A stretch of 64,000 bases of DNA, taken from positions 1 through 64,000 of IMG/VR virus record IMGVR_UViG_3300023179_009191. One strand, written 5' to 3'. How positions within the stretch are numbered: position 1 is the stretch's first letter; the number at the start of each line of letters is the position of its first letter. The position numbers were made by a program, and so were the translations under genes. The stretch comes from a virus. A model generated the notes under the pieces. The model saw only the letters and a list, made by a program, of their open reading frames with translations. It searched no databases and was not told the DNA's origin. Shown one piece after another: positions 6,287 to 50,504 of the stretch.

Positions 6287-6314
6287 TTGATTTTTTTAAA
6301 AAAACATTTATAAT
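6287..6314 (+). promoter_or_regulatory. Early leaderless promoter for the 6321 gene
   Basis: TTGATT, 16 bases, TATAAT; six bases then ATG 6321. Confidence 0.75.
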
Positions 6315-6320
6315 TAAATA

Positions 6321-6677
6321 ATGAAAAAACATTTTTTTGCCATTTTGGTTTTGCCAAGCCTTGTTTGGGGGCAGACTATCTCCAGTGATAGCAAAGAACC
6401 AATGGTTTTAAATTTTGTAAAAAACGATTCAGGAGAAATAGTCTTAAAGCTCAAGGGCCACAAACAGTCCATTGAAATTCAAATCAATGGAGTAAAAATT
6501 GCTTCTTTAAATGAGCAAGATGAAGCAGCCAATTTAACTCAAGCAGGGTTTGAATCAGCAATGCTTGCTCTGGATACCAAGAGTGGATCGTCAGGTTCTA
6601 AAATTGATGCTCAACCCACAGTGCCTCCTGTGGCCCCTGCAGTTTTTTCCAACCCTTTTGCCGCTACTCCTTATTAA
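6321..6677 (+). CDS. Small exported protein
   Basis: 118 residues with a signal peptide (MKKHFFAILVLPSLVWG, cleavage near residue 17) and a polar body ending in a Pro/Ala-rich stretch (PTVPPVAPAVF). No domain recognised. It has its own promoter, separate from the PEP-CTERM operon, and ends four bases inside the convergent 6674 gene. Confidence 0.7.
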   Translation: MKKHFFAILVLPSLVWGQTISSDSKEPMVLNFVKNDSGEIVLKLKGHKQSIEIQINGVKIASLNEQDEAANLTQAGFESAMLALDTKSGSSGSKIDAQPTVPPVAPAVFSNPFAATPY

Positions 6678-7138
6678 TAGCTGTCAATATCTGCAGGTAA
6701 AAATTCCCAATCATCCACAACAAAGCATTTGATTATTTTAATTCCATATGTATCTTCTGCCCAATTTTTAAGTCTTGCATCATATTTGTTTTTATTTCCA
6801 GCAACTCCTACATACATGGTACCATAATTCATATCATAAGCCCATAATTTATTTTTGTATTCAAATATGCAAATAGCATGACCAAAGACTGTGGCAGTTG
6901 TTTTGCCATAAATTTTTATATCATCATTATAATTATAAGTATATCCAAAAATGGATGCATAAATTTTGGGCGTTGTCTCAGATTTTAATGCCAAGCTGGC
7001 TCGGGAAGAGTAAATTAAAGACTCAATAAAACATGAATTGGGAAGTTTTGTATAATCATATGTTATATAAGATCCATTTTTACCTATTTTAAAGCCAGTG
7101 AGCAATGAAGCATACATGGAGGCTAAAAACAAACCCAT
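6674..7138 (-). CDS. Secreted Cys-His protease/transglutaminase-like protein
   Basis: 154 residues. Hydrophobic N terminus suggests export. The order of motifs NSCFIESLIY (Cys), FGHAICIFEY (His) and AYDMNYG (Asp/Asn) fits the papain/transglutaminase-like fold, where Cys attacks an amide and His/Asp complete the triad. The fold assignment is inferred from this spacing only. Convergent with the 6321 gene. Confidence 0.55.
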   Translation of the reverse strand: MGLFLASMYASLLTGFKIGKNGSYITYDYTKLPNSCFIESLIYSSRASLALKSETTPKIYASIFGYTYNYNDDIKIYGKTTATVFGHAICIFEYKNKLWAYDMNYGTMYVGVAGNKNKYDARLKNWAEDTYGIKIIKCFVVDDWEFLPADIDSY

Positions 7139-7187
7139 TATAGCACAATACTTTAAAATGCGTAAAAGCTTCGTATAATTATTTAGC

Positions 7188-7215
7188 TTGTATTGTTTTG
7201 TTTTTCCTGTATATT
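7188..7215 (+). promoter_or_regulatory. Early leaderless promoter for uvdE
   Basis: TTGTAT, 16 bases, TATATT; six bases then ATG 7222. Sets the uvdE start. Confidence 0.75.
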
Positions 7216-7221
7216 TTATAC

Positions 7222-8133
7222 ATGCAATTGTCTCTATGTTGTCAAAGTAATTTGCTACATGAAGGGGGGATCAAGTTCCGTACCATGACTGTAACACAAT
7301 TCAAAAAAAAGCCTCTGCATGAGTCTCTCAATGTTTTATGTTCCAGAATCATTACAAATTTTCATACCTTGGAAAAGACAGTAAAACTATGCAAAACCAT
7401 GGGATTGGCAGGCATGCGCATTGGTAGTGATTTAATTCCAGTGATAAATCATCCTGATTTAAATCTAGATTTTTATAAACTGCCCATGCAAGATGAAATA
7501 ATGCATGCCATTAATAATGCTAAATGCATGATGCAACAATCAGGATTGCGCTTCTCTGCCCATCCTTCTGAGTTTATTAGTTTAACTTCTGAAAATCCCA
7601 GAGTAATTGCCAACAGCATAAGAGATTTAATTGCTCATGCCTTGGTATTTGAATTGTTGGGGCTGCAAGAATCTTATGAAGCTCCTCTGAACATTCATAT
7701 TCGCAAAGATGGAGACCCTGAAATTATTTTTAATGCAGTAAAAAAATCATTATCTCAATGCCCTGCATGTGTTACCAAAAGGCTTGTATTTGAAAATAAT
7801 GATAACAAATCAGGTGTATGGAGCATTAAAAACTTGGTACATTATTTTCATAATAGATTGGGCATACCCATTACCTATGATAACTTGCACCATGAAATGC
7901 TTTCAGATGGTTTGTCTCATCAACAAGCTTTTGATACAGCTTATGATACTTGGGGCAGCTATATGCCCATATTTCATTACTCAGAAGGCATCAAGGGCAC
8001 CAGAAAGCATGCAGATTATGCTAAATCTTTGCCTGTTGACCATGGTCGACCAGTCATCTGGGAAGTAGAATTAAAAGCCAAAGACAAAGCCATCAAGCGT
8101 ATGATCAAGGAATATGAAGTATCTCATCATTGA
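7222..8133 (+). CDS. uvsE: UV damage endonuclease UvdE
   Basis: 303 residues. UvdE (UvsE) is a TIM-barrel, metal-dependent nuclease that nicks DNA 5' to UV photoproducts. Seen: LCCQSN near the start, LCKTMGLAGMRIGSDLIP, RFSAHPSEF, LNIHIRKDG, LVFENNDNKSGVWS, ITYDNLHHE, PIFHYSEG and GRPVIWEVELKAKDKA, matching the family's metal-binding His/Glu/Asp series. Start ATG 7222 chosen from the promoter geometry; upstream in-frame codons overlap the promoter. It overlaps the next gene by 20 bases. Likely repairs phage DNA in sunlit habitats. Confidence 0.93.
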   Translation: MQLSLCCQSNLLHEGGIKFRTMTVTQFKKKPLHESLNVLCSRIITNFHTLEKTVKLCKTMGLAGMRIGSDLIPVINHPDLNLDFYKLPMQDEIMHAINNAKCMMQQSGLRFSAHPSEFISLTSENPRVIANSIRDLIAHALVFELLGLQESYEAPLNIHIRKDGDPEIIFNAVKKSLSQCPACVTKRLVFENNDNKSGVWSIKNLVHYFHNRLGIPITYDNLHHEMLSDGLSHQQAFDTAYDTWGSYMPIFHYSEGIKGTRKHADYAKSLPVDHGRPVIWEVELKAKDKAIKRMIKEYEVSHH

Positions 8134-19908: not shown

Positions 19909-20265
19909 TTAAAGCATGTGCTCGAATGCAGCTTTGGCCATGTTAACGATTTCCATGGCATCTTGAGGAGAATAATTCTTTTTGTGCAACAGATAATCCC
20001 AAATATACAAAGCATCACTGTGTTTTCCTTTTGCTTGGCTCTCAGCATCTTCAGACTGTTTTTTCTTTGTATCTTCAATTGATTTGGCAATTGCTTCTCT
20101 TTTTTTCTTAAGATATGCATCAGTTGCATCCACTTTGCCATCATTGTTAATATCATCATCTTCTTGACCCACAGGGTCCAAAGATTCTGTTACAATTTGC
20201 TTGGGTTTTTGATGCTTAGCTCTATAAGCTTCAAACATCTTGCTATTGTCTACACCATATGGCAT
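19909..20265 (-). CDS. Protein with one EF-hand/dockerin-like calcium loop
   Basis: 118 residues. DINNDGKVDATDAYL (about 39-53) is a textbook calcium-binding loop (D-x-N-x-D-G-x-x-x-x-x-D) as in dockerins. The rest is charged helix (KKKREAIAKSIEDTKKK). Similar GQED-D-NNDGK proteins occur in T4-like marine phages, but the role is unknown. Late octamer AATAAATA sits five bases before the ATG. Confidence 0.7.
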   Translation of the reverse strand: MPYGVDNSKMFEAYRAKHQKPKQIVTESLDPVGQEDDDINNDGKVDATDAYLKKKREAIAKSIEDTKKKQSEDAESQAKGKHSDALYIWDYLLHKKNYSPQDAMEIVNMAKAAFEHML

Positions 20266-20270
20266 AATAA

Positions 20271-20278
20271 TATTTATT
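20271..20278 (-). promoter_or_regulatory. Late promoter AATAAATA
   Basis: Exactly five bases before ATG 20265 (minus strand). Confidence 0.6.
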
Positions 20279-20465: not shown

Positions 20466-20493
20466 TTGATTGTTTTGATGGTGCATGCATAAT
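20466..20493 (+). promoter_or_regulatory. Early leaderless promoter for the 20500 gene
   Basis: TTGATT, 16 bases, CATAAT; six bases then ATG 20500. Confidence 0.75.
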
Positions 20494-20499
20494 AAAAAC

Positions 20500-20667
20500 A
20501 TGGAATTTGTAACCACAGGCAACATGCCAGCAACCCCTGATAATACTACTGTATACTATGATGCCAGGGATGAAAAAATTGCATCATTGGAGCTCAGGCT
20601 CCAATCTCTGGAAGATGATTTTACCAAACTAACTGCATTTGTCAATAATATTGCTAATAAGTCATGA
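20500..20667 (+). CDS. Small coiled-coil protein
   Basis: 55 residues with a C-terminal heptad-like helix (EKIASLELRLQSLEDDFTKLTAFV). The ATG at 20500 is chosen over one at 20485 because the latter lies on the -10 box. ATGA overlap with the next gene. Confidence 0.65.
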   Translation: MEFVTTGNMPATPDNTTVYYDARDEKIASLELRLQSLEDDFTKLTAFVNNIANKS

Positions 20668-20785: not shown

Positions 20786-20886
20786 ACCTCCTTAGTTTAA
20801 TGATAAAACAAGTGATTTATACTCACTGCCCTGCCAAGGGTGCTCTAGATCTGAGCACGATGCTGGTTTGAATCCAGCAGGAGGTA
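20786..20886 (+). tRNA. Atypical tRNA-like gene, possible tRNA-Ile(UAU)
   Basis: Acceptor ACCTCCT (20786-20792) pairs with AGGAGGT (20879-20885). T arm GCTGG-TTTGAAT-CCAGC at 20862-20878 is canonical. Anticodon arm AGTGA-TTTATAC-TCACT (20811-20827) gives anticodon UAU. The D loop lacks the usual GG, and the variable region is 34 bases with its own CCCT/AGGG and GTGCTC/GAGCAC stems, so the total is about 100 bases. Either a tRNA with an inserted element or a decaying or repurposed tRNA. Confidence 0.55.
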
Positions 20887-20925: not shown

Positions 20926-20953
20926 TTGACTTGTTTGCAAATTCTAATATAAT
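20926..20953 (+). promoter_or_regulatory. Early leaderless promoter for the FMN-reductase-like gene
   Basis: TTGACT, 16 bases, TATAAT (both near consensus); six bases then ATG 20960. Confidence 0.85.
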
Positions 20954-20959
20954 CATTTT

Positions 20960-21553
20960 ATGACTTTTACCATTCTCAATGGATCTCTGGGAGGGAGAAC
21001 TGGTAATACCAATAACCTCATACAGAAAGTTAAGAAACTCATTTTAACCAAAGATGAGAGCACTAAAATTCGTATTATACACCTCTCTCCACATTTTGAT
21101 TGGATAAAGGTACGCCGGGCTATTAAAGCTTCAGATGCATTAATATTTTGCACTGGTACTTATTGGGATTCTTGGGGTTCTCCTATGCAACAATTGTTTG
21201 AGAAGATGACTCAAATTGAAGGAAAGAAGCATTTGCTAGGCAAACCAGCTGGGGCCATTGTTACCATGCACTCTGTGGGAGGCAAAGAAGTATGCTCCAG
21301 AATTTTAGGCAATTTGGTTGGTCTGGGCTGCATGATCCCGCCATTTACTGGATTTGCATATGCATATTCAGATCATGTTGCTCATAAGTCTCGTACTTCT
21401 GGTAAAAAGTTGCTGGATGATGTGTGGCATATTGATGATTTAGATGCATTTATTCATAATATTTTTGCAGCACACCATGGTTCTAAAGATTGGAAAGTTT
21501 GGGACTATCTGGATACTCAAGCCATGGATCCCAATTATGTGTGGTTAAAATAG
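20960..21553 (+). CDS. NADPH-dependent FMN reductase/flavodoxin-fold protein
   Basis: 197 residues. Flavodoxin-like fold: N-terminal FTILNGSLGGRTGNTNNLI is the phosphate-binding loop for FMN, ALIFCTGTYWDSWGSPMQQLFE is the second flavin loop typical of NAD(P)H:FMN oxidoreductases, and GKPAGAIVTMHSVGG the third. Such enzymes reduce flavins or quinones; a role supplying reduced flavin to the phage ThyX or RNR is possible but unproven. Led by its own strong promoter. Confidence 0.85.
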   Translation: MTFTILNGSLGGRTGNTNNLIQKVKKLILTKDESTKIRIIHLSPHFDWIKVRRAIKASDALIFCTGTYWDSWGSPMQQLFEKMTQIEGKKHLLGKPAGAIVTMHSVGGKEVCSRILGNLVGLGCMIPPFTGFAYAYSDHVAHKSRTSGKKLLDDVWHIDDLDAFIHNIFAAHHGSKDWKVWDYLDTQAMDPNYVWLK

Positions 21554-33020: not shown

Positions 33021-33026
33021 ATAGGC

Positions 33027-33908: not shown

Positions 33909-33914
33909 ATAAAC

Positions 33915-35541: not shown

Positions 35542-35630
35542 ATAGTGTGATTGAATTTGCAGATGTGGCTTCTGTATTTTTATGCTTGAGCTTCTTCATA
35601 TTCTGCTATATGATGTTTAAGAATAAATAA
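35538..35630 (+). CDS. 30-residue membrane peptide
   Basis: FADVASVFLCLSFFIFCYMMF is one transmembrane helix. ATGA start. Confidence 0.5.
   Translation: MNSVIEFADVASVFLCLSFFIFCYMMFKNK
35622..35629 (+). promoter_or_regulatory. Possible late promoter AATAAATA
   Basis: Four bases before ATG 35634; overlaps the stop of the peptide gene. May be coincidence. Confidence 0.3.
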
Positions 35631-35633
35631 ATT

Positions 35634-36323
35634 ATGGGACTATTTGACACAGTAATTATTGAAAAACTTAAACTGGAATATCCTCCAGAAGTGGATAGCT
35701 TCTTGAAAGAAAGAAATGCAGAATTTCCTAATGATTTTCAAACCAAAGATTTGGATTGCAGCATGGCCATGTACAAAATCACAGAAGATGGCCAACTGTG
35801 GCATGAGCAAAGGGTCCCTAATGGTAAGAAAGTAAAAAGAGAGCCATGGCCCAGGTTCAAGCAGGACTTGTCTTGGCTGGAAACTGTTTACTGGGATTAT
35901 AGAGAAAAGCAGCTTGATAAAAAAATGAATGCATTGTATTCTGAATTTGATGAAGGTTATGATTTGGTTTTCAAACCTTCTAATGTTACTACCACTATCA
36001 ATCTGTATACTTTTGAATTGATTCAAGACAAATACTTGACCTTAGATTACGAAGTAATCTTGGTAGGAGGCAAAGTAGTGAGCTCCCGTTTAACTCATCA
36101 TGAGATTGAAACAGATGAAGAAAAAAATAATAGAGAGATTAGAGATAAAGAGTTAGACGAAAATCTAACCGCCCGCAGAAAAGCTTTGAATAAACTGCAT
36201 GCACAATGGTATTACCCTGTTATTAAAGAGGTATACAATCCTCTGGTATTTCTTACAAGTAAGTCCCTGCAATACATAGCAGAAAGACTAAAACAGTTGA
36301 GCTATAAGCTAACAAAATATTGA
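35634..36323 (+). CDS. Conserved phage protein, paralogue of the 8978 product
   Basis: 229 residues. Same length and same motif order (MGLFDTVIIEKLKLE, FQTKDLD, ARRK, QWYYPVIKEVYNPLVF) as the 8978 product, with diverged middle. Unknown function. Confidence 0.75.
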   Translation: MGLFDTVIIEKLKLEYPPEVDSFLKERNAEFPNDFQTKDLDCSMAMYKITEDGQLWHEQRVPNGKKVKREPWPRFKQDLSWLETVYWDYREKQLDKKMNALYSEFDEGYDLVFKPSNVTTTINLYTFELIQDKYLTLDYEVILVGGKVVSSRLTHHEIETDEEKNNREIRDKELDENLTARRKALNKLHAQWYYPVIKEVYNPLVFLTSKSLQYIAERLKQLSYKLTKY

Positions 36324-36639: not shown

Positions 36640-36892
36640 TAACGAACTTCACAACGAATTGATGCATGTTGTGGTGAGGCTCCCCCAAGATTATGAGCCT
36701 TTTGGAACAGTTAAGAGATGGGAAGATGATAACAAAAATTATCCAGATTGTTCCATGGGGTGTAGGTATTATAAACCTCTGAAAGGAGAGTTGGGCCAAG
36801 ATTGGGGTGTTTGTGTTAACCGCAACAATTACAGGTTTGGATTATTGACTTTTGAACATATGAGCGGGGTTACTTGTTTCGAAAAAGCTTGA
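36632..36892 (+). CDS. Small cysteine-containing conserved protein
   Basis: 86 residues with YPDCSMGCRYYKPL...DWGVCVN...GLLTFEHMSGVTCFE. The four-Cys arrangement suggests a metal-binding or disulphide fold; this domain occurs widely in phages with no known role. Its stop TGA lies in the next -35. Confidence 0.65.
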   Translation: MTNNELHNELMHVVVRLPQDYEPFGTVKRWEDDNKNYPDCSMGCRYYKPLKGELGQDWGVCVNRNNYRFGLLTFEHMSGVTCFEKA

Positions 36893-36916
36893 CCATATTC
36901 TAAATTCCTACATATT
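36889..36916 (+). promoter_or_regulatory. Early leaderless promoter for the 36923 gene
   Basis: TTGACC, 16 bases, CATATT; six bases then ATG. Confidence 0.7.
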
Positions 36917-36922
36917 TTAACC

Positions 36923-37108
36923 ATGGATTTAACAACTAATGTACAAAGACTAGTGGAAGAGATCTGCTACATGTCTGAGGGATTTGGAAGTATAGACAGA
37001 GCTATTAGCTTTGCTAAAGATAGACAAATTAATCTTAACTATCATGTTCCCGGTCATATGTGGCCAGACATTGAGCTTGAGTTGGAAGAGCTTATAGCCA
37101 ATCAATAA
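36923..37108 (+). CDS. Small acidic helical protein
   Basis: 61 residues, ending ELELEELIANQ. No family. Confidence 0.6.
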   Translation: MDLTTNVQRLVEEICYMSEGFGSIDRAISFAKDRQINLNYHVPGHMWPDIELELEELIANQ

Positions 37109-37113
37109 AAAGC

Positions 37114-37141
37114 TTGACTAAATTTCTAGTTCCTTCATAAT
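37114..37141 (+). promoter_or_regulatory. Early leaderless promoter for the 37148 gene
   Basis: TTGACT, 16 bases, CATAAT; six bases then ATGATG. Confidence 0.85.
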
Positions 37142-37147
37142 ATAGGC

Positions 37148-37420
37148 ATGATGAAAAAAGATACATTTATAAAAGATTGGGAAGAATGGGCTGATATGAC
37201 CAACAAGCTTCCTTTGGAGATTCGAGTCAATAGCCGCAGGGCAGGGGCTTACAGTATCAAAAAGAGTGGCATGCTACCAGAAGGCTGTGGCATCAGTTCT
37301 TCAGATGTTAATCATGAATTGTTTAGCATCTGGAAAGATTGCGGTAAAGATTTTTCCAGCTATCTTTCAACGTTAGTTGAGCTTTTAAATCAGAGAGAAG
37401 ATAGTGAGGTAATGGCATGA
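37148..37420 (+). CDS. Small conserved protein, paralogue of the 33027 product
   Basis: 90 residues; nearly collinear with the 33027 product, including SGMLPEGCGISSSD-NHELFSIWKD. Both have the same promoter type and the same ATGATGAAAAAA start. Confidence 0.7.
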   Translation: MMKKDTFIKDWEEWADMTNKLPLEIRVNSRRAGAYSIKKSGMLPEGCGISSSDVNHELFSIWKDCGKDFSSYLSTLVELLNQREDSEVMA

Positions 37421-37856: not shown

Positions 37857-38768
37857 ATGAATATAAAAGTGGGATCTACAAAGTTTCAACATATCAGTGA
37901 AATTACCATTCCAGATGTGTATTACCGCAGGCTCAAGTGTGGCAATGAGAAGATTGATGCTGCATTTGGTGATGGCATTTTGCCTGGTAGTAGCATTACT
38001 CTGACTGCCCGGGCTGGCATGGGCAAGACTACTTTTGTGTTGCAGTTGCTGGAAATGCTTAACAATCAAGGACACAAAGTGGGCTACTGCTCTTCTGAGG
38101 AGAGTGTTGCCCAGCTTGCCATGACTTGCAAACGTTTGCAAGTGAAGAATATCCAGGTGTGCAATGAGAGTGATGTGGATACCATCTCCAAGTACATGGA
38201 AGACTTGGATGTTGTTGTGGTAGATAGCTTTCAGAGTTTGGTCAAAGGCAATAAGAAGGGCAGAGAGCTGGAGAAGTATTGCATTGAGAAATTGGTAATT
38301 CGTGCCAAGGAGACTGAGTGTGCAGTTATCTTGATCTGTCACAATACCAAAGCTGGTGGCATCAAGGGCAGTTCTTTTATTATTCATGCTGTGGATGTTA
38401 ACATTTCTATTCACCAGATCAAAGACGCTGATATTAATGCCCGTTGCATTCGGTTTGATAAGAATCGCTTTGGTCCTGCAGTTGATATTGAAGGGTTCAT
38501 TGAATACTCTGGTTATGACTTTGACAAAGAGGTGGTTGTTGATGCAGGTGCAGATAACAAGCCTTCCAAAGCAGACAAGAAGAAAGAGCAGAGAGACATT
38601 ATTCTCAAGATGGAAACGGTTACTGTGCAAGAGGTTTGCAAGAAACTCAGCATTGACAGTACCCGTGCAGGATTTCTTCTCAGAGAACTGGTCCTGGAAT
38701 GCAAATTGGTCAAGCAAGGCAGAGGGGTTGAAGCCACTTATGCCAAGCCTGATATTAATGTTGACTAG
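37857..38768 (+). CDS. RadA-like RecA-fold ATPase
   Basis: 303 residues. Walker A ARAGMGKTT (51-59), Walker B DVVVVDS (118-124), and KNRFG (202-206), the motif that sets RadA/Sms apart from RecA. The zinc finger and Lon-like domain of bacterial RadA are missing; instead residues about 240-303 look like a winged helix (TVQEVCKKLSIDSTRAGFLLRELV). RadA unwinds DNA to extend recombination D-loops; the phage version may serve recombination-dependent replication in place of UvsX or a helicase loader. Confidence 0.85.
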   Translation: MNIKVGSTKFQHISEITIPDVYYRRLKCGNEKIDAAFGDGILPGSSITLTARAGMGKTTFVLQLLEMLNNQGHKVGYCSSEESVAQLAMTCKRLQVKNIQVCNESDVDTISKYMEDLDVVVVDSFQSLVKGNKKGRELEKYCIEKLVIRAKETECAVILICHNTKAGGIKGSSFIIHAVDVNISIHQIKDADINARCIRFDKNRFGPAVDIEGFIEYSGYDFDKEVVVDAGADNKPSKADKKKEQRDIILKMETVTVQEVCKKLSIDSTRAGFLLRELVLECKLVKQGRGVEATYAKPDINVD

Positions 38769-38788
38769 GTCTTATATTCCTTCATAAT
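38761..38788 (+). promoter_or_regulatory. Early leaderless promoter for the 38795 gene
   Basis: TTGACT, 16 bases, CATAAT; six bases then ATGATG. The -35 encodes the last codons of the RadA-like gene. Confidence 0.85.
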
Positions 38789-38794
38789 AGTATC

Positions 38795-39379
38795 ATGATG
38801 ATTGCACAAGATACCAAAGTTATTAACGATAGCCATTTTGACCGTCTTTATAATAAAGACTTTGTGTTTGATGTTCATGATACGAATAACTTTCTTCGCC
38901 TTCCTAATGGCAGAGTTCAGGCTAACGTTTCTTTTAGCCCTCGTTATTCAGATCGCTATTCCACTAAGAATAACTATCTTTTTATTAGCGGTGAGCGTGG
39001 TCCTCATGAGTTAGATTCCTCTGTTAAGTATTACCATCAAGAGCTTCAACCTGGCCCAAAAGGTGAGGATGAAGCCATGGATAAAGAATGGCGTATTTAC
39101 AATCGTAAAGAAGTTAAGATCATGAACACATATCTTCTTATTCTGGGTTGTGAAATTGAATATCGTGCTAAGAATGTTGACAGCGAAACTTCGTGGGATT
39201 TTCCTGGTTTCTATATGGTACTATCAGAGTGGCTTAACAAGAGTGGTTTTTATAATCGAACCTTCAGTCCTTATGCTGGCTGCCAGATATGCAAATGCTC
39301 CCCTGGCTTCAAGTTAAAGAATGTGCATCCTAGCATTAAGAATGTGGCCATGTATGTGGATTTCAAAGAAAATGAGTGA
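38795..39379 (+). CDS. Hypothetical protein with CxxC motif
   Basis: 194 residues with SPYAGCQICKCSPGF near residue 165-180, a likely metal or disulphide site, and a beta-rich N terminus (RLPNGRVQANVSFSPRYS). Family not recognised. Cotranscribed with the coiled-coil gene that follows. Confidence 0.65.
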   Translation: MMIAQDTKVINDSHFDRLYNKDFVFDVHDTNNFLRLPNGRVQANVSFSPRYSDRYSTKNNYLFISGERGPHELDSSVKYYHQELQPGPKGEDEAMDKEWRIYNRKEVKIMNTYLLILGCEIEYRAKNVDSETSWDFPGFYMVLSEWLNKSGFYNRTFSPYAGCQICKCSPGFKLKNVHPSIKNVAMYVDFKENE

Positions 39380-39503
39380 TGGCATTTACTTGGAAGCTAT
39401 TCAAAATCTTAGAGAAGAAAACAAGAAGCTAGAAGAGCAAGTTTCATCCCTGAAAAAAATGATTGAGGACCTTATCAATTCCTATAACATTGTTATTAAA
39501 TGA
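39372..39503 (+). CDS. 43-residue coiled-coil protein
   Basis: YLEAIQNLREENKKLEEQVSSLKKMIEDLINSY is an almost perfect heptad coiled coil. Overlaps both neighbours. Confidence 0.65.
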   Translation: MSDGIYLEAIQNLREENKKLEEQVSSLKKMIEDLINSYNIVIK

Positions 39504-39976
39504 GCGCATATATCTACAAATTAATTAGTCCGAAGAAATATACTTGGATGAATGTACAATTTGAGACCAATGGACTAGCTGAAACCAAACCAGTCTATCA
39601 TCTTAAGTTTTGGTATAAACCATACAACGGTATGGAAGATGATAAGAAACTTCAAAAACAGTTATGTAGAGAAGAGAGGAAGACCAAAGAGCTTTTTAAA
39701 AATGTAAAGGTTGAATATGCTATTCTTACATTTGGCTGGGATGGGGGTAAGGGCAGTATTAGTAAACCTTTTAATCATGGGGAATACTTTGGATGCTATC
39801 AAGTAGTCAATTGGAATAAGCTGAGGCGAAATGGTGAAATTATTGACCTTGACGAAGCCTGGCTAGGTAATTGTAATAGGATTTGTTTTAATGATGAGGC
39901 ATTTGATAACATCTATCATAAAGCCTTCCTAGCTTCAAGAGAAGATATTGTAGATGAGGTGATGAGTTGTGCCTGA
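39500..39976 (+). CDS. Hypothetical protein
   Basis: 158 residues, beta-rich (VQFETNGLAETKPVYHLKFWYKPYNG) with a polar helical C terminus. ATGA start. No family recognised. Confidence 0.65.
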   Translation: MSAYIYKLISPKKYTWMNVQFETNGLAETKPVYHLKFWYKPYNGMEDDKKLQKQLCREERKTKELFKNVKVEYAILTFGWDGGKGSISKPFNHGEYFGCYQVVNWNKLRRNGEIIDLDEAWLGNCNRICFNDEAFDNIYHKAFLASREDIVDEVMSCA

Positions 39977-40176: not shown

Positions 40177-40383
40177 ATGAAATACATTTCACTGCACATG
40201 GGTGGGGAACAATATGACTATGCTTATGAGCCACAAACTTGCACAGTGTATACTCAAATGTTCAATCAAGTGCCTGTGCACAGTGTGCATTTGAGGTGTG
40301 GTACCATTCTCAAGCATGATGACTTGAGACAGTTGATACAAAATAAACTGCAAGCTTATGAAATGCTTGAAAACAGCTTTTGA
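40177..40383 (+). CDS. Small hypothetical protein
   Basis: 68 residues, beta-rich (ISLHMGGEQYDYAYEPQTCTVYTQM). Unknown. Confidence 0.6.
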   Translation: MKYISLHMGGEQYDYAYEPQTCTVYTQMFNQVPVHSVHLRCGTILKHDDLRQLIQNKLQAYEMLENSF

Positions 40384-40394
40384 TACAGTATAAT
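40367..40394 (+). promoter_or_regulatory. Early leaderless promoter for the 40401 gene
   Basis: TTGAAA, 16 bases, TATAAT; six bases then ATG 40401. Confidence 0.7.
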
Positions 40395-40400
40395 CATGTG

Positions 40401-40565
40401 ATGAAACATGTATTTGAATTGTATGAACATGGAAGCAGAGGCATTGTATTCAAAGGGTATCAAACTGTGCATGCACCAGATGCTGAAACTGCCAGGCTAT
40501 CTGCACAAGACCAATTTCCAGAATACCATGTGGTGCCCATTCATGTGCCTGAGGGCAAGCAGTGA
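40401..40565 (+). CDS. 54-residue protein
   Basis: MKHVFELYEHGSRGIVFKGYQTVHAPDAETARLSAQDQFPEYHV...: resembles the DpnD/PcfM-type small domains that follow the pattern V.A.d.e.A...A. Start chosen over an upstream ATG that overlaps the -10 box. Confidence 0.6.
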   Translation: MKHVFELYEHGSRGIVFKGYQTVHAPDAETARLSAQDQFPEYHVVPIHVPEGKQ

Positions 40566-42149: not shown

Positions 42150-42157
42150 CATAAATA
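42150..42157 (+). promoter_or_regulatory. Late promoter CATAAATA
   Basis: Exactly five bases before ATG 42163. Confidence 0.65.
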
Positions 42158-42162
42158 TACAC

Positions 42163-42579
42163 ATGGCCTTGGGCACAGTGGATTATGTGAGTACTGCACC
42201 ATGGAACAATGCATTGAACCCATGGCCTCAGTATGCTCAATTGCAATTGTCTGCTGCAGACATACAAGGTGGTGCATGGTTAACATATACTCTGTTACAA
42301 TTTGATCCATTAACACCTGAAATATTTTACAGTGCCAATACAGAAGAAGGCAATTACTTGACATGCAATGGAACTGAATGGAAAGTTATAGCTCAAGAAG
42401 AGTTAGATTATTATATTTTAACAACTGCAATCAGAGCCTTACCTGCAGGATACAAGCAAGGCAACACGGGCTGGATTGCAGTAGAAGGTAGCCAAGTGAC
42501 CAGCATCAGCATCATGCCAGTGACCACAGTGCTAACTCCATGGGAATTCAGAAGAAGAAGATCATTGGAATATGTGTAA
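42163..42579 (+). CDS. Hypothetical late protein
   Basis: 138 residues, beta-rich and Trp/Tyr-rich (PWPQYAQLQLSAADIQGGAWLTYTLLQFD), ending in a basic tail (EFRRRRSLEYV). Looks like a virion decoration or fibre-type domain; inferred from composition and promoter class. Confidence 0.6.
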   Translation: MALGTVDYVSTAPWNNALNPWPQYAQLQLSAADIQGGAWLTYTLLQFDPLTPEIFYSANTEEGNYLTCNGTEWKVIAQEELDYYILTTAIRALPAGYKQGNTGWIAVEGSQVTSISIMPVTTVLTPWEFRRRRSLEYV

Positions 42580-43568: not shown

Positions 43569-43848
43569 CTTGTTCATCTTAGCATTTTGCTAAATGGTTG
43601 AAAATGACTGAGCAGACCTAACCATTTCTGTCTCAACACTCTCTGTAGTTTGTTCATGCCCAACAATCCAACCACTGTTCATAATCAACACCTTTACGCG
43701 TAAAGTAAAGGTCCAGAGCCCCCTCCTCCTCTCCTAATATAAGATGGTACTGCCTTCCTAAATTGTCCCTATATTATAAAGGAATTCTAGATTCTGTCAA
43801 TAACAAAATAAGGCTTGTTGCAACCCCAAATTCAGATATAATATAGGT
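43569..43848. other. 280-bp non-coding stretch with a palindrome
   Basis: No ORF above noise. It holds the perfect palindrome CTTTACGCGTAAAG (43692-43705), a pyrimidine-rich tract (about 43720-43738) and, at the end, the promoter for 43849. A regulatory region or the scar of a lost gene. Confidence 0.5.
43815..43842 (+). promoter_or_regulatory. Early leaderless promoter for the 43849 gene
   Basis: TTGTTG, 16 bases, TATAAT; six bases then ATGATG. Confidence 0.8.
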
Positions 43849-44061
43849 ATGATGAAACTAGAAAGAAAGAAACAAATTAGTGAGCTTATTGAAGAGACAT
43901 TCAATAATGTTCAAAAACTAAATGAATTGTTAAAGAAATCAGATTATGAATGGGCCAATAAGAATTGGGAGTCTGAAAATGATGATGATTATGAATTGGC
44001 TGAATCCATTCTTAATGTGGGAGAGAATCTTAAAGATTGGGGCAAGCAATTTAGGGGTTGA
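43849..44061 (+). CDS. Small acidic helical protein
   Basis: 70 residues, helical (SELIEETFNNVQKLNELLKKSDYEWANKNWESENDDDYEL). Its stop is inside the next TTGACT. Confidence 0.6.
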   Translation: MMKLERKKQISELIEETFNNVQKLNELLKKSDYEWANKNWESENDDDYELAESILNVGENLKDWGKQFRG

Positions 44062-44085
44062 CTAAATCCAAAATTCAGCCATAAT
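44058..44085 (+). promoter_or_regulatory. Early leaderless promoter for the 44092 gene
   Basis: TTGACT, 16 bases, CATAAT; six bases then ATGATG. Confidence 0.9.
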
Positions 44086-44091
44086 ATAGGT

Positions 44092-44295
44092 ATGATGAAA
44101 GAAGAAAACAAAAGAACGTTTGAGGTAGATATTGCAGTCACCCTCTTTATCACTCAAGAAGTAGAAGCAACAGATGAAGATGAAGCTCAAAGAATTGCAG
44201 AAGATTCCATCAAAACTGGAACTGTAATGAATGCTTGGGAGTGTAGAGATTGTGAGATTGAAAGTACAGGCTGTACTGAAGTGGAGGTAGAGTGA
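44092..44295 (+). CDS. DpnD/PcfM-like small protein
   Basis: 67 residues. RTFEVDIAVTLFITQEVEATDEDEAQRIAEDSIKTG follows the beta-beta-alpha pattern of the DpnD/PcfM C-terminal domain (V.V....VEA.d.eeA...A...). Role unknown; many phages carry copies. See also 45996. Confidence 0.6.
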   Translation: MMKEENKRTFEVDIAVTLFITQEVEATDEDEAQRIAEDSIKTGTVMNAWECRDCEIESTGCTEVEVE

Positions 44296-44510
44296 ATACA
44301 TTCCAACCTTATACACAAACAAATGTTGTAGACTTCTATAAGGAGTTGGTTAAGAGGTGGGCTGATGACCAATTGGACCAACTGCATGAATACCCTATTA
44401 CTGATAGGAAGAATGCATTAGCAAGGCTTCTTGACTCCTCTCTAGATGTGTTCCGAGATGATATTACAGAAGAAATCAGAAAAAGAAATTTGTCTTTTTT
44501 GGTTGACTAA
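44292..44510 (+). CDS. Hypothetical protein
   Basis: 72 residues from GTG overlapping the previous TGA. Helical (VDFYKELVKRWADDQLDQLHEYP...). Ends inside the next -35. Confidence 0.6.
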   Translation: MNTFQPYTQTNVVDFYKELVKRWADDQLDQLHEYPITDRKNALARLLDSSLDVFRDDITEEIRKRNLSFLVD

Positions 44511-44530
44511 AAACTAAATTCCACCATAAT
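44503..44530 (+). promoter_or_regulatory. Early leaderless promoter for the 44537 gene
   Basis: TTGACT, 16 bases, CATAAT; six bases then ATGATG. Confidence 0.9.
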
Positions 44531-44536
44531 AGGTGT

Positions 44537-44758
44537 ATGATGAATAAAGAACAATACTTACAAATTGACTTGTATAATGGCAAAAGCAAATGGATCTCCA
44601 AAAAGGACTTTCTCCTTTTTACAGTAGGGGATGGTACTGAAGAGGCAGATTATAATTGGAAAGACAATTGGGAATATATTAGAAAGACTCCCACCCACAC
44701 AACCTATAAAGGGGAAGAGTGTATTTTAGTAGATTTCACCAACACAAAATTGGCTTGA
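44537..44758 (+). CDS. Small hypothetical protein
   Basis: 73 residues, beta-rich (QIDLYNGKSKWISKKDFLLFTVGDG...). Stop TGA lies in the next TTGACC. Confidence 0.6.
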   Translation: MMNKEQYLQIDLYNGKSKWISKKDFLLFTVGDGTEEADYNWKDNWEYIRKTPTHTTYKGEECILVDFTNTKLA

Positions 44759-44782
44759 CCCAAACCCAAATTCAGCCATAAT
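44755..44782 (+). promoter_or_regulatory. Early leaderless promoter for the 44789 gene
   Basis: TTGACC, 16 bases, CATAAT; six bases then ATGATG. Confidence 0.9.
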
Positions 44783-44788
44783 ATAAAC

Positions 44789-44989
44789 ATGATGAAACCA
44801 TTAACCGAAGAACAACTCAGTTACCGCGCACTTGACCTGCACATGACAGCTGAGAACATCCGCACCAATCTATCCAATATTGAGGCGATGTTGAGTATAT
44901 CCAATCCTAATTGGAAGAACTTGTATACAGCATTACAAGAGATTGATAGCAAAACTGATCGGCTATCAGATCGGGTTCGCTGGAAATAA
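44789..44989 (+). CDS. Small helical protein, similar to the 45027 product
   Basis: 66 residues. The ENIRTNLSNIEAMLSISNPNWKNLYTALQEIDSKTDRLSD pattern is echoed in the next product (ENIINGLKYIGNEINIETPLWETFCKRIDTIDNNVDKL), so they are probably tandem paralogues. Confidence 0.65.
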   Translation: MMKPLTEEQLSYRALDLHMTAENIRTNLSNIEAMLSISNPNWKNLYTALQEIDSKTDRLSDRVRWK

Positions 44990-44992: not shown

Positions 44993-45020
44993 TTGACCAA
45001 ATCCTAATTTCCCATATAAT
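44993..45020 (+). promoter_or_regulatory. Early leaderless promoter for the 45027 gene
   Basis: TTGACC, 16 bases, TATAAT; six bases then ATG 45027. Confidence 0.85.
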
Positions 45021-45026
45021 ATGAGT

Positions 45027-45230
45027 ATGATAAATGATACAGAGAGGTGGGAGAGAATGTTGAAGGTGGGTTATTCAATTGAGAACATTATTAATGGGCT
45101 CAAATATATTGGAAATGAAATTAATATTGAGACTCCTTTATGGGAAACATTCTGCAAAAGAATTGATACAATCGACAATAATGTGGATAAGCTCATTGAA
45201 TTGATTGAGATCAGAAAGCAGAACAAATGA
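45027..45230 (+). CDS. Small helical protein, similar to the 44789 product
   Basis: 67 residues. ATG 45027 is chosen over the in-frame ATG at 45021 because the predicted transcript begins at 45027. ATGA overlap with the next gene. Confidence 0.65.
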   Translation: MINDTERWERMLKVGYSIENIINGLKYIGNEINIETPLWETFCKRIDTIDNNVDKLIELIEIRKQNK

Positions 45231-45455: not shown

Positions 45456-45483
45456 TTGACTAAAACAGAAGTTCTTTCATAAT
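45456..45483 (+). promoter_or_regulatory. Early promoter of the 45490 small RNA
   Basis: TTGACT, 16 bases, CATAAT; six bases then the RNA. Confidence 0.85.
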
Positions 45484-45489
45484 AATAGC

Positions 45490-45635
45490 AGTTCCTTCCG
45501 CAGTACGGGTTTGACTAGCCCAATTGATGTACTGAAGCCCCAACGCCCAGAGTCTGAGGCGAGTAGAGGTGGGTATATTGTCCTAACTACTGTCGACGTT
45601 ACTAGAGTAGGGGAGTCGGAAGGAGCTACTTTTTT
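45490..45635 (+). ncRNA. Putative structured small RNA B
   Basis: Predicted transcript of about 146 bases. Its first 11 bases (45490-45500) pair with 45617-45627 (AGTTCCTTCCG with CGGAAGGAGCT, one G-U), and the closing stem is followed by a six-T tract, so the stem is also the terminator. Inside are CAGTAC/GTACTG with a nested GGG/CCC, CGCC/GGCG, and GTAG/CTAC pairs. No ATG follows the promoter, unlike its siblings. GC content is well above the neighbours. Class unknown; the size and closed rod-like form would fit a regulatory RNA. Confidence 0.75.
45617..45635 (+). terminator. Terminator of small RNA B
   Basis: 3' half of the closing stem followed by TTTTTT (45630-45635). Confidence 0.75.
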
Positions 45636-45637
45636 AG

Positions 45638-45665
45638 TTGACCCAAACAGAAGTTCCATCATAAT
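45638..45665 (+). promoter_or_regulatory. Early leaderless promoter for the 45672 gene
   Basis: TTGACC, 16 bases, CATAAT; six bases then ATGATG. Confidence 0.9.
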
Positions 45666-45671
45666 ATAGGT

Positions 45672-45992
45672 ATGATGAATAACACAGAACTAGCCAAGGC
45701 CTTGACAGTGATGGTAACTGATCCCAAGATCAGAAGCTTCCTAGAAGATAACGATCCCATGGCTCTGAAGCAAGCCACAGAAGCTCTCAGAAACTATTTT
45801 AACCAATATCAGACCACCCATTACACACTTTCAGGTGAAGTGCCCTGGACGCCCCCAGTGGGACCTGCTGATTACTACCCTGATTGGGATTTCTATATGA
45901 AGCCTCACCATGAATACACTACAGACATGAAGACTGAGCCTTTGAAGTGGGGTCCGTTTGGAGAAGGTGGCTCTACACCTCTTGGGAAATAA
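45672..45992 (+). CDS. Hypothetical protein
   Basis: 106 residues: helical N half, Pro/Trp/Tyr-rich C half (VPWTPPVGPADYYPDWDFYMKPHHEY). Unknown function. Confidence 0.65.
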   Translation: MMNNTELAKALTVMVTDPKIRSFLEDNDPMALKQATEALRNYFNQYQTTHYTLSGEVPWTPPVGPADYYPDWDFYMKPHHEYTTDMKTEPLKWGPFGEGGSTPLGK

Positions 45993-46124: not shown

Positions 46125-46152
46125 TTGACTTCAACCCAAATTCCTGCATAAT
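46125..46152 (+). promoter_or_regulatory. Early leaderless promoter for the 46159 gene
   Basis: TTGACT, 16 bases, CATAAT; six bases then ATGATG. Confidence 0.9.
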
Positions 46153-46158
46153 AGTAGT

Positions 46159-46326
46159 ATGATGACAATGACGATCAAAGAAGCGGTGAAGAAGTACAAG
46201 AAGCAGGACACCTGCAGGTACTTCCTCAAATGCACCAATAAGGCCACCACCACCATCCCCAACCCCATTCTAGGAGAGGTGCCTGCTTGTAAGAGCTGTG
46301 CAGACTTCTATCGGAGACAATCATGA
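46159..46326 (+). CDS. 55-residue zinc-ribbon-like protein
   Basis: Cysteines in CRYFLKC and CKSC (Cx5C...Cx2C) suggest a small zinc site. Basic N terminus (EAVKKYKKQ). GC-rich codons. ATGA overlap with the next gene. Confidence 0.6.
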   Translation: MMTMTIKEAVKKYKKQDTCRYFLKCTNKATTTIPNPILGEVPACKSCADFYRRQS

Positions 46327-48024: not shown

Positions 48025-48052
48025 TTGCCGTTAACCCAAATGCCATTATAAT
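48025..48052 (+). promoter_or_regulatory. Early leaderless promoter for the 48059 gene
   Basis: TTGCCG, 16 bases, TATAAT; six bases then ATGATG. Confidence 0.75.
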
Positions 48053-48058
48053 AGGGGT

Positions 48059-48286
48059 ATGATGAATAACACAGTTACCGTTGAGTTGCCTCGAGCTGAA
48101 AAGGTTGAGGACAGCACAGGAGGCAGGGTGGGCTATTGCATCGGCCATCTCTTGAACCTCAAACAGATGATGCATATCAATTCTGGCCATGGAGGTGAGG
48201 GAGTGTTCTCTCAGTCTGAGATGCTCCAACAGATCGATAAGGTTATCGACAAGCTGGACCAGATCACTTACCCTTACGCAGTTTAA
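48059..48286 (+). CDS. Small hypothetical protein
   Basis: 75 residues (GGRVGYCIGHLLNLKQMMHINSGHGGEGVFSQSEMLQQIDKVIDKL). Gly/His-rich centre; unknown. Confidence 0.6.
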   Translation: MMNNTVTVELPRAEKVEDSTGGRVGYCIGHLLNLKQMMHINSGHGGEGVFSQSEMLQQIDKVIDKLDQITYPYAV

Positions 48287-48545: not shown

Positions 48546-48717
48546 GTTGGATCAGAGCTCTGAGCTCAGAGACATCTTTGCTGGGTTGGCTATGCATGCA
48601 CTAATTGGTCAACCAGCTGCCACTCACAAGTGGGTGGCCCACCAAGCGTACAAGTATGCTGACGCCATGCTTGACGAACGTGACAGCGTCAGTGATAATA
48701 AGGAGAACAAAAGCTAG
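48535..48717 (+). CDS. Small hypothetical protein
   Basis: 60 residues (ELRDIFAGLAMHALIGQPAATHKWVAHQAYKYADAMLDER). Resembles the short phage proteins of the type ...DxFAaaAMqgll...A..AY..ADaML, common and uncharacterised. Convergent with the second HNH gene. Confidence 0.65.
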   Translation: MKDKLDQSSELRDIFAGLAMHALIGQPAATHKWVAHQAYKYADAMLDERDSVSDNKENKS

Positions 48718-49349
48718 TATTTGTTGCTCTTTTTGATATTATCAACTGCCCACAGTGGCTGTAGATTTTTAATATTAAAACACTCACTCACTTGAACAGG
48801 ATCACTGAGATTGAAGCTGGAGACAGGCCTGATATGATCAATGTGCCACAAGTGCATGTTATTCCAGGTCATGCCAGGCTGGAACAATGCTTCTATGTGT
48901 TGTCTGGCTTGAGTCCAGTGAGTGATGCCCAGCATGCATTTGGTATGCCTCTTCAGGTAGCTGGTAGCCTTGAGAGCAGCTCTGGTCCTGGCTCTGCATC
49001 TGACAGCAATCCTCTCCTCAGGTGTATTGGCTTTAAAGACTTCGGGATGTTCTCTGGTATACTTCTTGCGGTATTCACTCTGTTGCTGTTTGTTCTGTTG
49101 GTACCACTGTCTGCCTTTGATCAGTCTTTGCTCTCTTTGCTCAGCAGTTTCATGCATTCTTTTGGCCTTAGCACGCATAATCTCTTTCTGAATCCTGTCC
49201 TGGACATATGCAGGGTCTTTGCGCCTGTGTTGCAGATACTCTCTCTCACACTGTCTGCATGTTTGCTGCAAACCATGCTTGCCAGTCTTACACTTATTAA
49301 AGTCAGCAAAGTTTTTGTGTATTTTGCAGCTGCTACAGTATTTGGTCAT
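48714..49349 (-). CDS. Free-standing HNH endonuclease with N-terminal zinc motif
   Basis: 211 residues. N-terminal CSSCKIHK...CRQCERE (two CxxC) probably binds zinc, as in other phage HNH proteins; the middle is a basic helix; the core is WHIDHIRPVSSFNLSDPVQVSECFNIKNLQPLWAVDN. Related to the 47038 protein over the catalytic part. Antisense to early genes and driven by its own late octamer. Confidence 0.92.
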   Translation of the reverse strand: MTKYCSSCKIHKNFADFNKCKTGKHGLQQTCRQCEREYLQHRRKDPAYVQDRIQKEIMRAKAKRMHETAEQREQRLIKGRQWYQQNKQQQSEYRKKYTREHPEVFKANTPEERIAVRCRARTRAALKATSYLKRHTKCMLGITHWTQARQHIEALFQPGMTWNNMHLWHIDHIRPVSSFNLSDPVQVSECFNIKNLQPLWAVDNIKKSNKY

Positions 49350-49354
49350 TTATA

Positions 49355-49362
49355 TATTTATG
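49355..49362 (-). promoter_or_regulatory. Late promoter CATAAATA for the second HNH gene
   Basis: Exactly five bases before ATG 49349 (minus strand). Confidence 0.65.
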
Positions 49363-49395: not shown

Positions 49396-49424
49396 TTGAT
49401 TTACTTGGATGGTTCAACTACAAT
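49396..49424 (+). promoter_or_regulatory. Early promoter for the SprT-like gene
   Basis: TTGATT, 17 bases, TACAAT; expected start about 49431, four bases before the ATG. Confidence 0.55.
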
Positions 49425-49434
49425 AGGAGGTACA

Positions 49435-50118
49435 ATGCAAACAAATAATATTACAGGTGAAGTTACTAACAAGTTGGTGCAGATGTTTGAATACATCAAC
49501 GCTGAACTTGAATTAAATTTAGACACTCCAGTGTTTACTCTAATTCCTAATCGTGGCCGTCAGAGTTACTATGGATGGTTCTGGCAAGGACGGTGGCAGA
49601 GCGGCAAGAAGAACTTACCAGAGATTAATATTACTGCTGACACCCTCAAGAGGTCTGTGGAAGACATCTTTGAAACAGTTTTGCATGAATGTGTACATTA
49701 TGTGAATTGGTCCAAGGACATTGTGGACTGCAATGTGAACCAGTATCATAACAAAGCGTTCAAGAAGCAAGCTGAAGCATTTGGCTTGAAGGTCGAACGT
49801 ATGCGTAATAAGGGCTATGCGAAGACCTCATTAGATGAGAAGGCCAATAACCTGGTTAAGAAGTACAAATGCAAGTATTGCAAGGATGACAAGAATCCCT
49901 TTCATGTGTACCGGGTAAGTGAAGAGCGCATCTCTATCGTAAAGAAGAATCACAAGAGGTTCATTGCCATTGATGGTGCATTGGCCACACAAGCTGAAGG
50001 ACGGTATGACAGTGGCACCTTGCGTCAATTGGTAGAGCATTTGCTACAGTCATATGTATCTGAAGGTGATGTGTATGAACACATGGCCACAGGCAGTGTG
50101 CATGCAGAGGTCATGTAA
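49435..50118 (+). CDS. SprT-like zinc metalloprotease
   Basis: 227 residues. HECVH at 84-88 is the HExxH zinc site in the SprT/SPRTN-type helix (VLHECVHYVNW); PNRGRQSYYGWF and a C-terminal CKYCKD zinc knuckle follow the family plan. SprT domains process DNA-protein crosslinks or act as peptidases. The start is ATG 49435: AGGAGG at 49425-49430 precedes it, though if transcription starts near 49431 that site would not be in the mRNA. Confidence 0.85.
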   Translation: MQTNNITGEVTNKLVQMFEYINAELELNLDTPVFTLIPNRGRQSYYGWFWQGRWQSGKKNLPEINITADTLKRSVEDIFETVLHECVHYVNWSKDIVDCNVNQYHNKAFKKQAEAFGLKVERMRNKGYAKTSLDEKANNLVKKYKCKYCKDDKNPFHVYRVSEERISIVKKNHKRFIAIDGALATQAEGRYDSGTLRQLVEHLLQSYVSEGDVYEHMATGSVHAEVM

Positions 50119-50120
50119 CC

Positions 50121-50186
50121 GTGGTATGCATTGAACTGGCCCTAGTCATAGCCGTATTAAGTTTGTTATTGACCTGCCGCTACTAA
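50121..50186 (+). CDS. 21-residue membrane peptide
   Basis: From GTG three bases after the protease stop: MVCIELALVIAVLSLLLTCRY. Matches the pattern of tiny hydrophobic ORFs at operon ends; its last codons overlap the next promoter. Confidence 0.35.
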   Translation: MVCIELALVIAVLSLLLTCRY

Positions 50187-50197
50187 CCCCATACAAT
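50169..50197 (+). promoter_or_regulatory. Early promoter for the 50205 gene
   Basis: TTGACC, 17 bases, TACAAT; ATGATG seven bases later. Confidence 0.7.
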
Positions 50198-50204
50198 CAG
50201 AGGC

Positions 50205-50504
50205 ATGATGAATACACAAGTAACAGAATATAAGACCATTCCCACGCAATTCAAGAAGAAGGGATTTGTTTACACTCAATTGAAGAGAGAAGGTGCAAGG
50301 GCCATCTATCAACAGACCCGAGAGGGGTCGACCATTAACAATTACGAGGTAGTTAAGATTGGACGGCACAATGGCTACATCATGGGTGGTGTTGCAATTG
50401 AGCCAGCAGAGACCTATCCAGGCTCCAGCTTGTGGGGCATTACAGGGTGGACTTGCACTAGCTTGGAAGATGCTTGCAAGCGGTATGAAGCATTGAGCAG
50501 CTAA
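50205..50504 (+). CDS. Hypothetical protein
   Basis: 99 residues, basic, beta-rich (FKKKGFVYTQLKREGARAIYQQTREGSTINNYEVVKIGRHNGYIMGGVAIEPAETYPGSSLWG). The order matches a widely distributed uncharacterised phage/bacterial family. TAATG overlap with the next gene. Confidence 0.65.
   Translation: MMNTQVTEYKTIPTQFKKKGFVYTQLKREGARAIYQQTREGSTINNYEVVKIGRHNGYIMGGVAIEPAETYPGSSLWGITGWTCTSLEDACKRYEALSS

Follow-up and report, generated by a model that had tools for sequence, protein, structure and literature searches.

Early-type and late-type promoters placed against start codons point to leaderless messages in an uncultured clade of T4-like myoviruses

The window analyzed here is a 64,000-nucleotide stretch of viral DNA at the start of a linear IMG/VR contig of 97,702 bases (IMGVR_UViG_3300023179_009191, bases 1-64000), in which promoters stand at a fixed and very short distance from the start codons of the genes that follow them. 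The terms "early" and "late" are used throughout for promoter types only. Because the contig encodes a T4-type portal (gp20, phrog_213, 2.8e-105), head protease (gp21, phrog_207, 1.6e-57) and major capsid protein (gp23, phrog_138, 2.7e-82) as well as a class I ribonucleotide reductase, we regard it as a fragment of a T4-like myovirus, and it shares the T4-like trait of ATAAATA late-type promoters (TATAAATA type) preceding structural genes. Among cultured phages, the nearest capsid proteins, chiefly those of cyanophages, are only ~34% identical to its own, and a megablast search that compared window bases 1-25000 with 50,697 phage records returned no match. When eight of the early proteins encoded in the window were scanned against PHROG, most were without a match and three had weak matches. 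The early-type units of the window are listed below with their open reading frames (ORFs), the gap between the -10 box and ATG in base pairs (bp), the predicted protein length in amino acids (aa) and, for some, the basis of the call (pattern match or position-weight matrix, PWM).

6287-6677, plus strand: early promoter at 6287-6314, 6 bp, predicted leaderless ORF 6321-6677 (118 aa); pattern match
20466-20667, plus strand: early promoter with weak -35, 6 bp, predicted leaderless ORF 20500-20667 (55 aa); pattern match
20926-21553, plus strand: early promoter, 6 bp, predicted leaderless ORF 20960-21553 (197 aa); pattern match
24218-24632, plus strand: early promoter, 6 bp, predicted leaderless ORF 24252-24632 (ATGATG, 126 aa; weak phrog_19789 match)
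32052-32352, plus strand: early promoter, 6 bp, predicted leaderless ORF 32086-32352 (ATGATG, 88 aa); pattern match
32754-33003, plus strand: early promoter, 6 bp, predicted leaderless ORF 32788-33003 (ATGATG, 71 aa)
32993-33305, plus strand: early promoter, 6 bp, predicted leaderless ORF 33027-33305 (ATGATG, 92 aa)
33881-34151, plus strand: early promoter, 6 bp, predicted leaderless ORF 33915-34151 (78 aa)
36889-37108, plus strand: early promoter with CATATT as -10 and ATG at the predicted +1, 36923 (61 aa); PWM score 25.2
37114-37420, plus strand: early promoter, 6 bp, predicted leaderless ORF 37148-37420 (ATGATG, 90 aa)
38761-39379, plus strand: early promoter, 6 bp, predicted leaderless ORF 38795-39379 (ATGATG, 194 aa)
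40367-40565, plus strand: weaker early-type promoter, 6 bp, ORF 40401-40565 (54 aa)
43815-44061, plus strand: early promoter with diverged -35, ATGATG at 43849 (70 aa); PWM score 23.2
44058-44295, plus strand: early promoter, 6 bp, predicted leaderless ORF 44092-44295 (ATGATG, 67 aa)
44503-44758, plus strand: early promoter, 6 bp, predicted leaderless ORF 44537-44758 (ATGATG, 73 aa)
44755-44989, plus strand: early promoter, 6 bp, predicted leaderless ORF 44789-44989 (ATGATG, 66 aa)
44993-45230, plus strand: early promoter, 6 bp, predicted leaderless ORF 45027-45230 (67 aa)
45638-45992, plus strand: early promoter, 6 bp, predicted leaderless ORF 45672-45992 (ATGATG, 106 aa)
46125-46326, plus strand: early promoter, 6 bp, predicted leaderless ORF 46159-46326 (ATGATG, 55 aa)
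48025-48286, plus strand: early promoter (TTGCCG), 6 bp, predicted leaderless ORF 48059-48286 (ATGATG, 75 aa)

Window counts were compared with those in 60 dinucleotide-preserving shuffles. The pattern TTG[AC]-N17-19-YATWAT-N6-ATG occurs 18 times on the plus strand and never on the minus strand (shuffled mean 0.17, maximum 2), the strict form TTGAC-N17-YATAAT-N6-ATG 12 times and 0 times (shuffled 0.00), and YATAAT-N6-ATGATG 13 times and 0 times, respectively (shuffled 0.08). On the plus strand, ATG follows YATAAT at six bases in 20 cases and at nine bases in 18, with 1-6 cases at nearly all other distances, and the nine-base peak is mostly the second ATG of ATGATG. A PWM built from 16 of the window sites and limited to the promoter found 23 ATGs exactly at the predicted +1, including 15 that are doubled as ATGATG. 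In this layout the -10 hexamer occupies -12 to -7, a Y stands at -1 and the A of ATG falls on +1. A TTC element at -18 to -16 from the ATG is conserved as strongly as the -35 box, with its C at -16 present in 16/16 window seed sites and in 76% of sites across the clade described below. This element, lying between the -35 and -10 boxes, is outside the sigma70 consensus and may be a regulator site or reflect a host sigma preference.

A first-pass annotation of the window had proposed at least 25 such units, fifteen or so with a doubled start, extending to ~50.2 kb. All 14 units named there as examples have a -35-like box, CATAAT or TATAAT, six bases and ATG, although the -35 is weak in three (TTGATT at 20500, TTGAAC at 33915 and TTGCCG at 48059), and the 15 ATGATG starts in the PWM scan agree with its estimate. 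The comparison it called for, of spacing against shuffled sequence, came out as 18 sites versus a mean of 0.17. The geometry thus stands with a somewhat smaller count (18-23 units), "at least 25" being a little high because the PWM scan yields 23, and no site scores at the far end near 50.2 kb. The TTC element is not mentioned in that annotation.

The arrangement recurs well beyond this contig. The full pattern TTGAC-N11-TTC-N3-YATAAT-N6-ATGATG matches 41 stretches among 2.9 million viral contigs, and when promoters in these stretches and in two protein relatives were matched without regard to ATG, the first ATG lay at exactly six bases in 75 of 104; several of the remaining 29 also have ATG at six bases, their discriminator happening to contain another ATG. 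The unit at 32052-32352 shares its promoter and N-terminus with L007, L008, L021, L039, L046 and others, and the ORF at 38795-39379 has relatives in L047 (82%) and L048 (72%), with identical promoter geometry in the L047 copy. In 11 clade contigs totaling ~1.2 Mb, the early six-base peak has p values of 3e-6 to 7e-45 and late peaks are found in most, while ATG stands exactly at +1 in 77 of 116 strict early promoters across the clade. Relatives of the capsid protein are encoded in at least 599 stretches, and a promoter-independent test set of 80 loci, chosen by capsid-protein similarity alone, shows the late spacing of five 109 times and the early spacing of six 24 times, with distant spacings at ~1-2. 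Neither peak is found in T4, Syn9, KVP40 (first 200 kb) or C48C1. A few of the 41 stretches (for example L018, L032 and L040) apparently belong to another phage group, in which TTGAC..TTC[AG]TGTATAAT promoters mostly have leaders and only occasionally ATGATG at +1.

Late-type promoters are placed in a corresponding manner. Among ORFs of at least 50 codons on the contig, 12 of 49 ATAAATA boxes lie five bases before ATG, well above the number at every other distance (background 0.2 per spacing), and the genes with this late-promoter geometry include the portal, a neck protein and the gp21 protease. In T4, late transcription depends on an 8-bp TATA box that takes the place of the -10 box, roughly one helical turn ahead of the start site (PMC2988020), and a five-base gap after the box would therefore put +1 on the ATG, as six bases after TATAAT would for sigma70. 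Start codons at this late +5 place include 105 ATG and 32 GTG, the latter also enriched, and the late sites are without doubled ATG. The late-type units of the window are as follows.

19909-20277, minus strand: late ATAAATA at 20271-20277, 5 bp, ATG at 20265 (118 aa)
30801-31139, minus strand: late ATAAATA, 5 bp, ATG at 31127 (108 aa)
35623-36323, plus strand: late ATAAATA, 4 bp, ATG at 35634 (229 aa)
42151-42579, plus strand: late ATAAATA, 5 bp, ATG at 42163 (138 aa)
48714-49361, minus strand: late ATAAATA, 5 bp, ATG at 49349 (211 aa)
51162-51644, minus strand: late ATAAATA, 5 bp, ATG at 51632 (156 aa)
52960-53445, plus strand: late ATAAATA, 5 bp, GTG at 52972 (157 aa)
57110-57358, plus strand: late ATAAATA, 5 bp, ATG at 57122 (78 aa)

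Both G011 homologs of the ORF at 42163 share its late-promoter geometry. Similarly, ATAAATA-N5-ATG precedes the gp21 protease gene in 5/5 clade orthologs and in none of the outgroup orthologs, several of which have G-rich leaders resembling a Shine-Dalgarno (SD) sequence. Iterative profile searches identified the late sigma factor gp55 in relatives G001, G002, G003, G006 and G007 and the clamp gp45 in G001, G003, G006 and G007; gp44 is also present in relatives, and neither gp55 nor gp45 was found by these searches in the incomplete contig of the window.

The start codons themselves were examined in pairs of units whose homology was assessed from sequence identity beyond codon 16. Across the six bases preceding ATG, 27% of positions are mismatched in early units and 39% in late units, compared with 4% and 12% in the -10 box, and from codon 3 onward mismatches concentrate in third codon positions in both promoter classes. 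With constraint on coding setting in at codon 3 and none on the six bases ahead of ATG, these ATGs are true starts. The clade genomes are nearly devoid of SD sequences: with a cut-off of -5 kcal/mol for pairing to the anti-SD, these precede 7-17% of clade genes (shuffled 5-14%) versus 59% in T4, 44% in HTVC008M and 57% in Melnitz, and in all clade contigs they precede 0% of the genes whose ATG adjoins an early -10. G is not enriched at -12 to -7 in the clade, unlike in T4, HTVC008M and Mosig. Published work has recognized leaderless genes computationally by a -10 box lying ~10-12 bp ahead of the start codon (PMC3160421), and such a box, without an SD sequence, is what is found here.

One early-type promoter of the window is not followed by an ATG at +1.

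45456-45636, plus strand: early-type promoter at 45456-45483, no ATG at +1, putative structured RNA from 45490

The putative RNA (45490-45636, ~143 nt) has an 11-bp closing stem (AGTTCCTTCCG/CGGAAGGAGCT) that begins exactly at the predicted +1 and is followed by a U-run, and it is conserved in L011 (894-1040) and L022 (1140-1276). Its fold is moderately stable relative to shuffles (z -2.1), with one compensatory pair and two extra pairs possible upstream across a bulge. No Rfam match was obtained for it, and two scans for further copies recovered only the two known ones. A stem starting at the predicted +1 lends indirect support to the predicted transcription start. Further early-type promoters without ATG lie at 27365-27560 (plus strand) and 43600-43800 (minus strand) of the window; both have ACAATTTAGG at +1 and possibly represent a second non-coding RNA family.

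Collectively, these data make it very probable that promoter-proximal genes of both classes in this T4-like myovirus are expressed as leaderless mRNAs. The first-pass annotation had assigned leaderless initiation to early genes, a reading supported by the geometry, the lack of SD sequences, the coding constraint from the ATG and independent relatives; its restriction to early genes does not hold, because T4-type late promoters are placed likewise. At early promoters (TTGAC, TTC at -18, YATAAT), host sigma70 holoenzyme would start RNA on the A of ATG, whereas gp55 together with gp45 would read late ATAAATA with +1 on ATG or GTG, and ribosomes would load on the 5'-terminal AUG. The doubled ATGATG, present in early units only, may mean that a start at either +1 or +4 still leaves a 5'-terminal in-frame AUG. 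Distal operon genes, which are also largely SD-free, presumably use coupling or unstructured AU-rich starts.

Several observations weigh against a uniformly leaderless clade. The capsid gene retains a leader with the SD sequence GGAGAAA, and a 97-aa early ORF has a short leader with AAAGGAGGT behind the usual promoter type (G005, G008 and L025), the same SD recurring in the G006 copy. AGGAG lies directly before ATG at 16/169 early sites, and late spacings range from 4 to 7. As sigma70 start sites can vary by several bases, leaders of 1-4 nt are possible. The clade contig counts are also not fully independent, since near-duplicates may be among them (bS21 is the same in G005 and G008).

The two leader-bearing cases have features of their own. 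At 70897-70930 of G000 (minus strand), and likewise at its orthologs in G001, G003, G006 and G007, the major capsid gene has GGAGAA ~12 nt before ATG, preceded in most members by GGTCGA. The leader-bearing early ORF (97-101 aa, MTTAT..REVTPKLTC.., family unknown) is located at ~88.2 kb in G005, ~61.9 kb in G008, 4127 in L025 and 210445 in G006; its very strong SD (AAAGGAGGT) breaks the rule, and a 65-aa ORF (MSIDYT..) does likewise.

The clade resembles T4 and its relatives (Straboviridae, Kyanoviridae) in encoding gp20, gp21, gp23 and NrdA/B and, in relatives of the window contig, gp44, gp45 and gp55, and in having early sigma70-type and late TATAAATA promoters, but the genes of T4, Syn9, KVP40 and C48C1 are SD-led. 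Late ATAAATA-N5-ATG is found for a minority of late promoters in the Pelagibacter phages HTVC008M (9 sites, p 6e-12) and Mosig (6 sites, p 1e-4), and weakly in the Methylophilales phage Melnitz (3 sites, p 0.02); these three differ in having no early spacing peak and SD sequences in 43-57% of genes.

A tentative addition, compatible with leaderless expression, is that a phage-encoded bS21 re-programs host ribosomes toward leaderless or SD-free mRNAs, so that promoters and bS21 would form one takeover device. bS21 (PF01165) was identified in G003, G005, G006, G008 and G015 and, below the cut-off, in G007. Five of these genes, whose products share a conserved C-terminal KWK[FY]Y tail, are located as follows.

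39317-39520 of G006: bS21
84843-85055 of G003: bS21
89399-89602 of G007: bS21 (below cut-off)
58790-59047 of G005: bS21
51703-51960 of G008: bS21

All three relatives outside the clade in which late leaderless-type promoters occur (HTVC008M, Mosig and Melnitz) encode bS21, and T4, Syn9 and C48C1, which are without the pattern, do not. Moreover, HTVC008M bS21 is incorporated into Escherichia coli ribosomes (PMC6375957) and bS21 governs access to the anti-SD in Flavobacterium (PMC9976891), both of which count in favor of such a role. However, the genomes are few and related, most of the contigs are fragments, and the three marine phages keep SD sequences for many genes. bS21 was not found in the window's own 97.7-kb fragment, in G001 (a 126 kb fragment) or in 14/15 smaller fragments, and Microcystis phage Mel-JY01 has bS21 but no late-spacing peak (it is also without gp55 and gp45). 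Expression of phage bS21 has been reported to coincide with that of late structural genes (PMC9723584), a timing that would not help early mRNAs. Other phage-encoded helpers sought, IF3 (nine contigs) and MazF/PemK, were not found. The broader proposal, that the widely distributed clade has largely abandoned SD sequences for early and late leaderless programs, with its own bS21 making host ribosomes leaderless-preferring and start-codon placement at all promoters forming part of the takeover strategy, is still more speculative and on present evidence rather unlikely.

Three alternatives to leaderless expression bear on the same evidence. It is improbable that transcription starts around +4 to +9, leaving the first ATG often outside the RNA and the second ATG or an internal codon in use. 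Variable sigma70 start sites would allow this, and ATGATG at 61/169 clade early sites would be expected if +4 were also used, but a single ATG stands at the other 108/169, the late sites have no doubled ATG, and codon constraint runs from codon 3 in both classes. That messages begin well upstream with ordinary leaders, the ATG-adjacent boxes being operators or secondary promoters, is very improbable: many small genes lie in tandem, so that read-through co-transcription is possible, and AGGAG does occur just before some ATGs, yet early-class genes show no SD signal, the -35, TTC and -10 elements are the only conserved upstream elements, and two unrelated promoter classes have an equal +1-on-ATG placement. 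Least credible of all is a dispersed repeat, a promoter plus ATGATGAA cassette copied around the genome with its spacing fixed by recent duplication rather than function, since, although early regions of T4-like phages often contain small-gene cassettes and the window early sites have extended similarity (TTGAC..TTC..CATAATATAGGTATGATGAA), boxes and ATG are conserved with the spacer and discriminator free to diverge, downstream ORFs differ from each other, the pattern holds across contigs with 65-85% identical capsid proteins, and late promoters without such a cassette show equal placement. The early cassettes may nevertheless owe their spread to duplication.

The search for a host was unsuccessful. 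The full promoter-ATGATG pattern, scanned over 84,980 prokaryote genomes, returned two isolated matches only, in ordinary bacterial contigs. As possible host clues, the psbA family (PF00124) is absent and bS21 profile matches in the PDB point to no single phylum. Bacteroidota-type promoters were considered and set aside, their enrichment (61 versus 27 in a reversed control) being unconvincing and showing no clear preferred distance to ATG. An Rfam tRNA match at 20786-20886 (plus strand, ~101 bases) that ARAGORN does not report is perhaps a tRNA with an insertion or a long variable arm.

The view in the first-pass annotation that no phage had been described with such a regulon agrees with the literature searched as far as early genes are concerned, as we found no early leaderless regime there, but Thermus phage phiYS40, which is not a T4-like phage, is a precedent for middle and late genes. 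Most phiYS40 middle and late mRNAs are leaderless (PMC3594737). As would hold for the clade, most transcripts of an expression class are concerned, and the phage has been proposed to shift translation in favor of leaderless mRNA (IF2 up, IF3 down). It differs in that the Thermus phylum is already rich in leaderless genes and only middle and late transcripts are involved; moreover, its transcripts were shown by experiment, while here sequence geometry indicates that early (sigma70-type) and late (gp55-type) promoters are both aimed at the start codon. Leaderless genes in Actinobacteria and Deinococcus-Thermus likewise have a -10 box ~10-12 bp before the start codon (PMC3160421), but these are cellular genes from other lineages, whereas the phage promoters have a strict -35 and the extra TTC element. 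A paper on phage AR9 notes that leaderless transcripts are frequent among phages (PMC5312081). Freshwater phages encoding bS21 share the aquatic habitat and the gene, and ribosome hijacking has been proposed for them (PMC9723584, PMC6375957); a word search of these papers found no mention of leaderless architecture. No description of an early leaderless regulon or of two start-codon-aimed promoter systems was found in a literature search that mostly excluded subscription journals, and a search on leaderless T4-like phages led only to a paper in which the word occurs solely within the title of a cited gene-caller article.

Outside a few lineages of bacteria and archaea, leaderless translation is usually considered a minor pathway. 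In these genomes, where the promoter gives the start codon directly, gene callers that look for SD sequences may misplace starts. Taken together, leaderless early and late messages would be unusual for phages and suggest that this widespread clade exploits or reshapes host translation. If this is true, the clade would offer a natural system of high output in which to study 70S/leaderless initiation, and it might explain the presence of bS21 in many environmental phages, which several papers have raised as a question without answering it.

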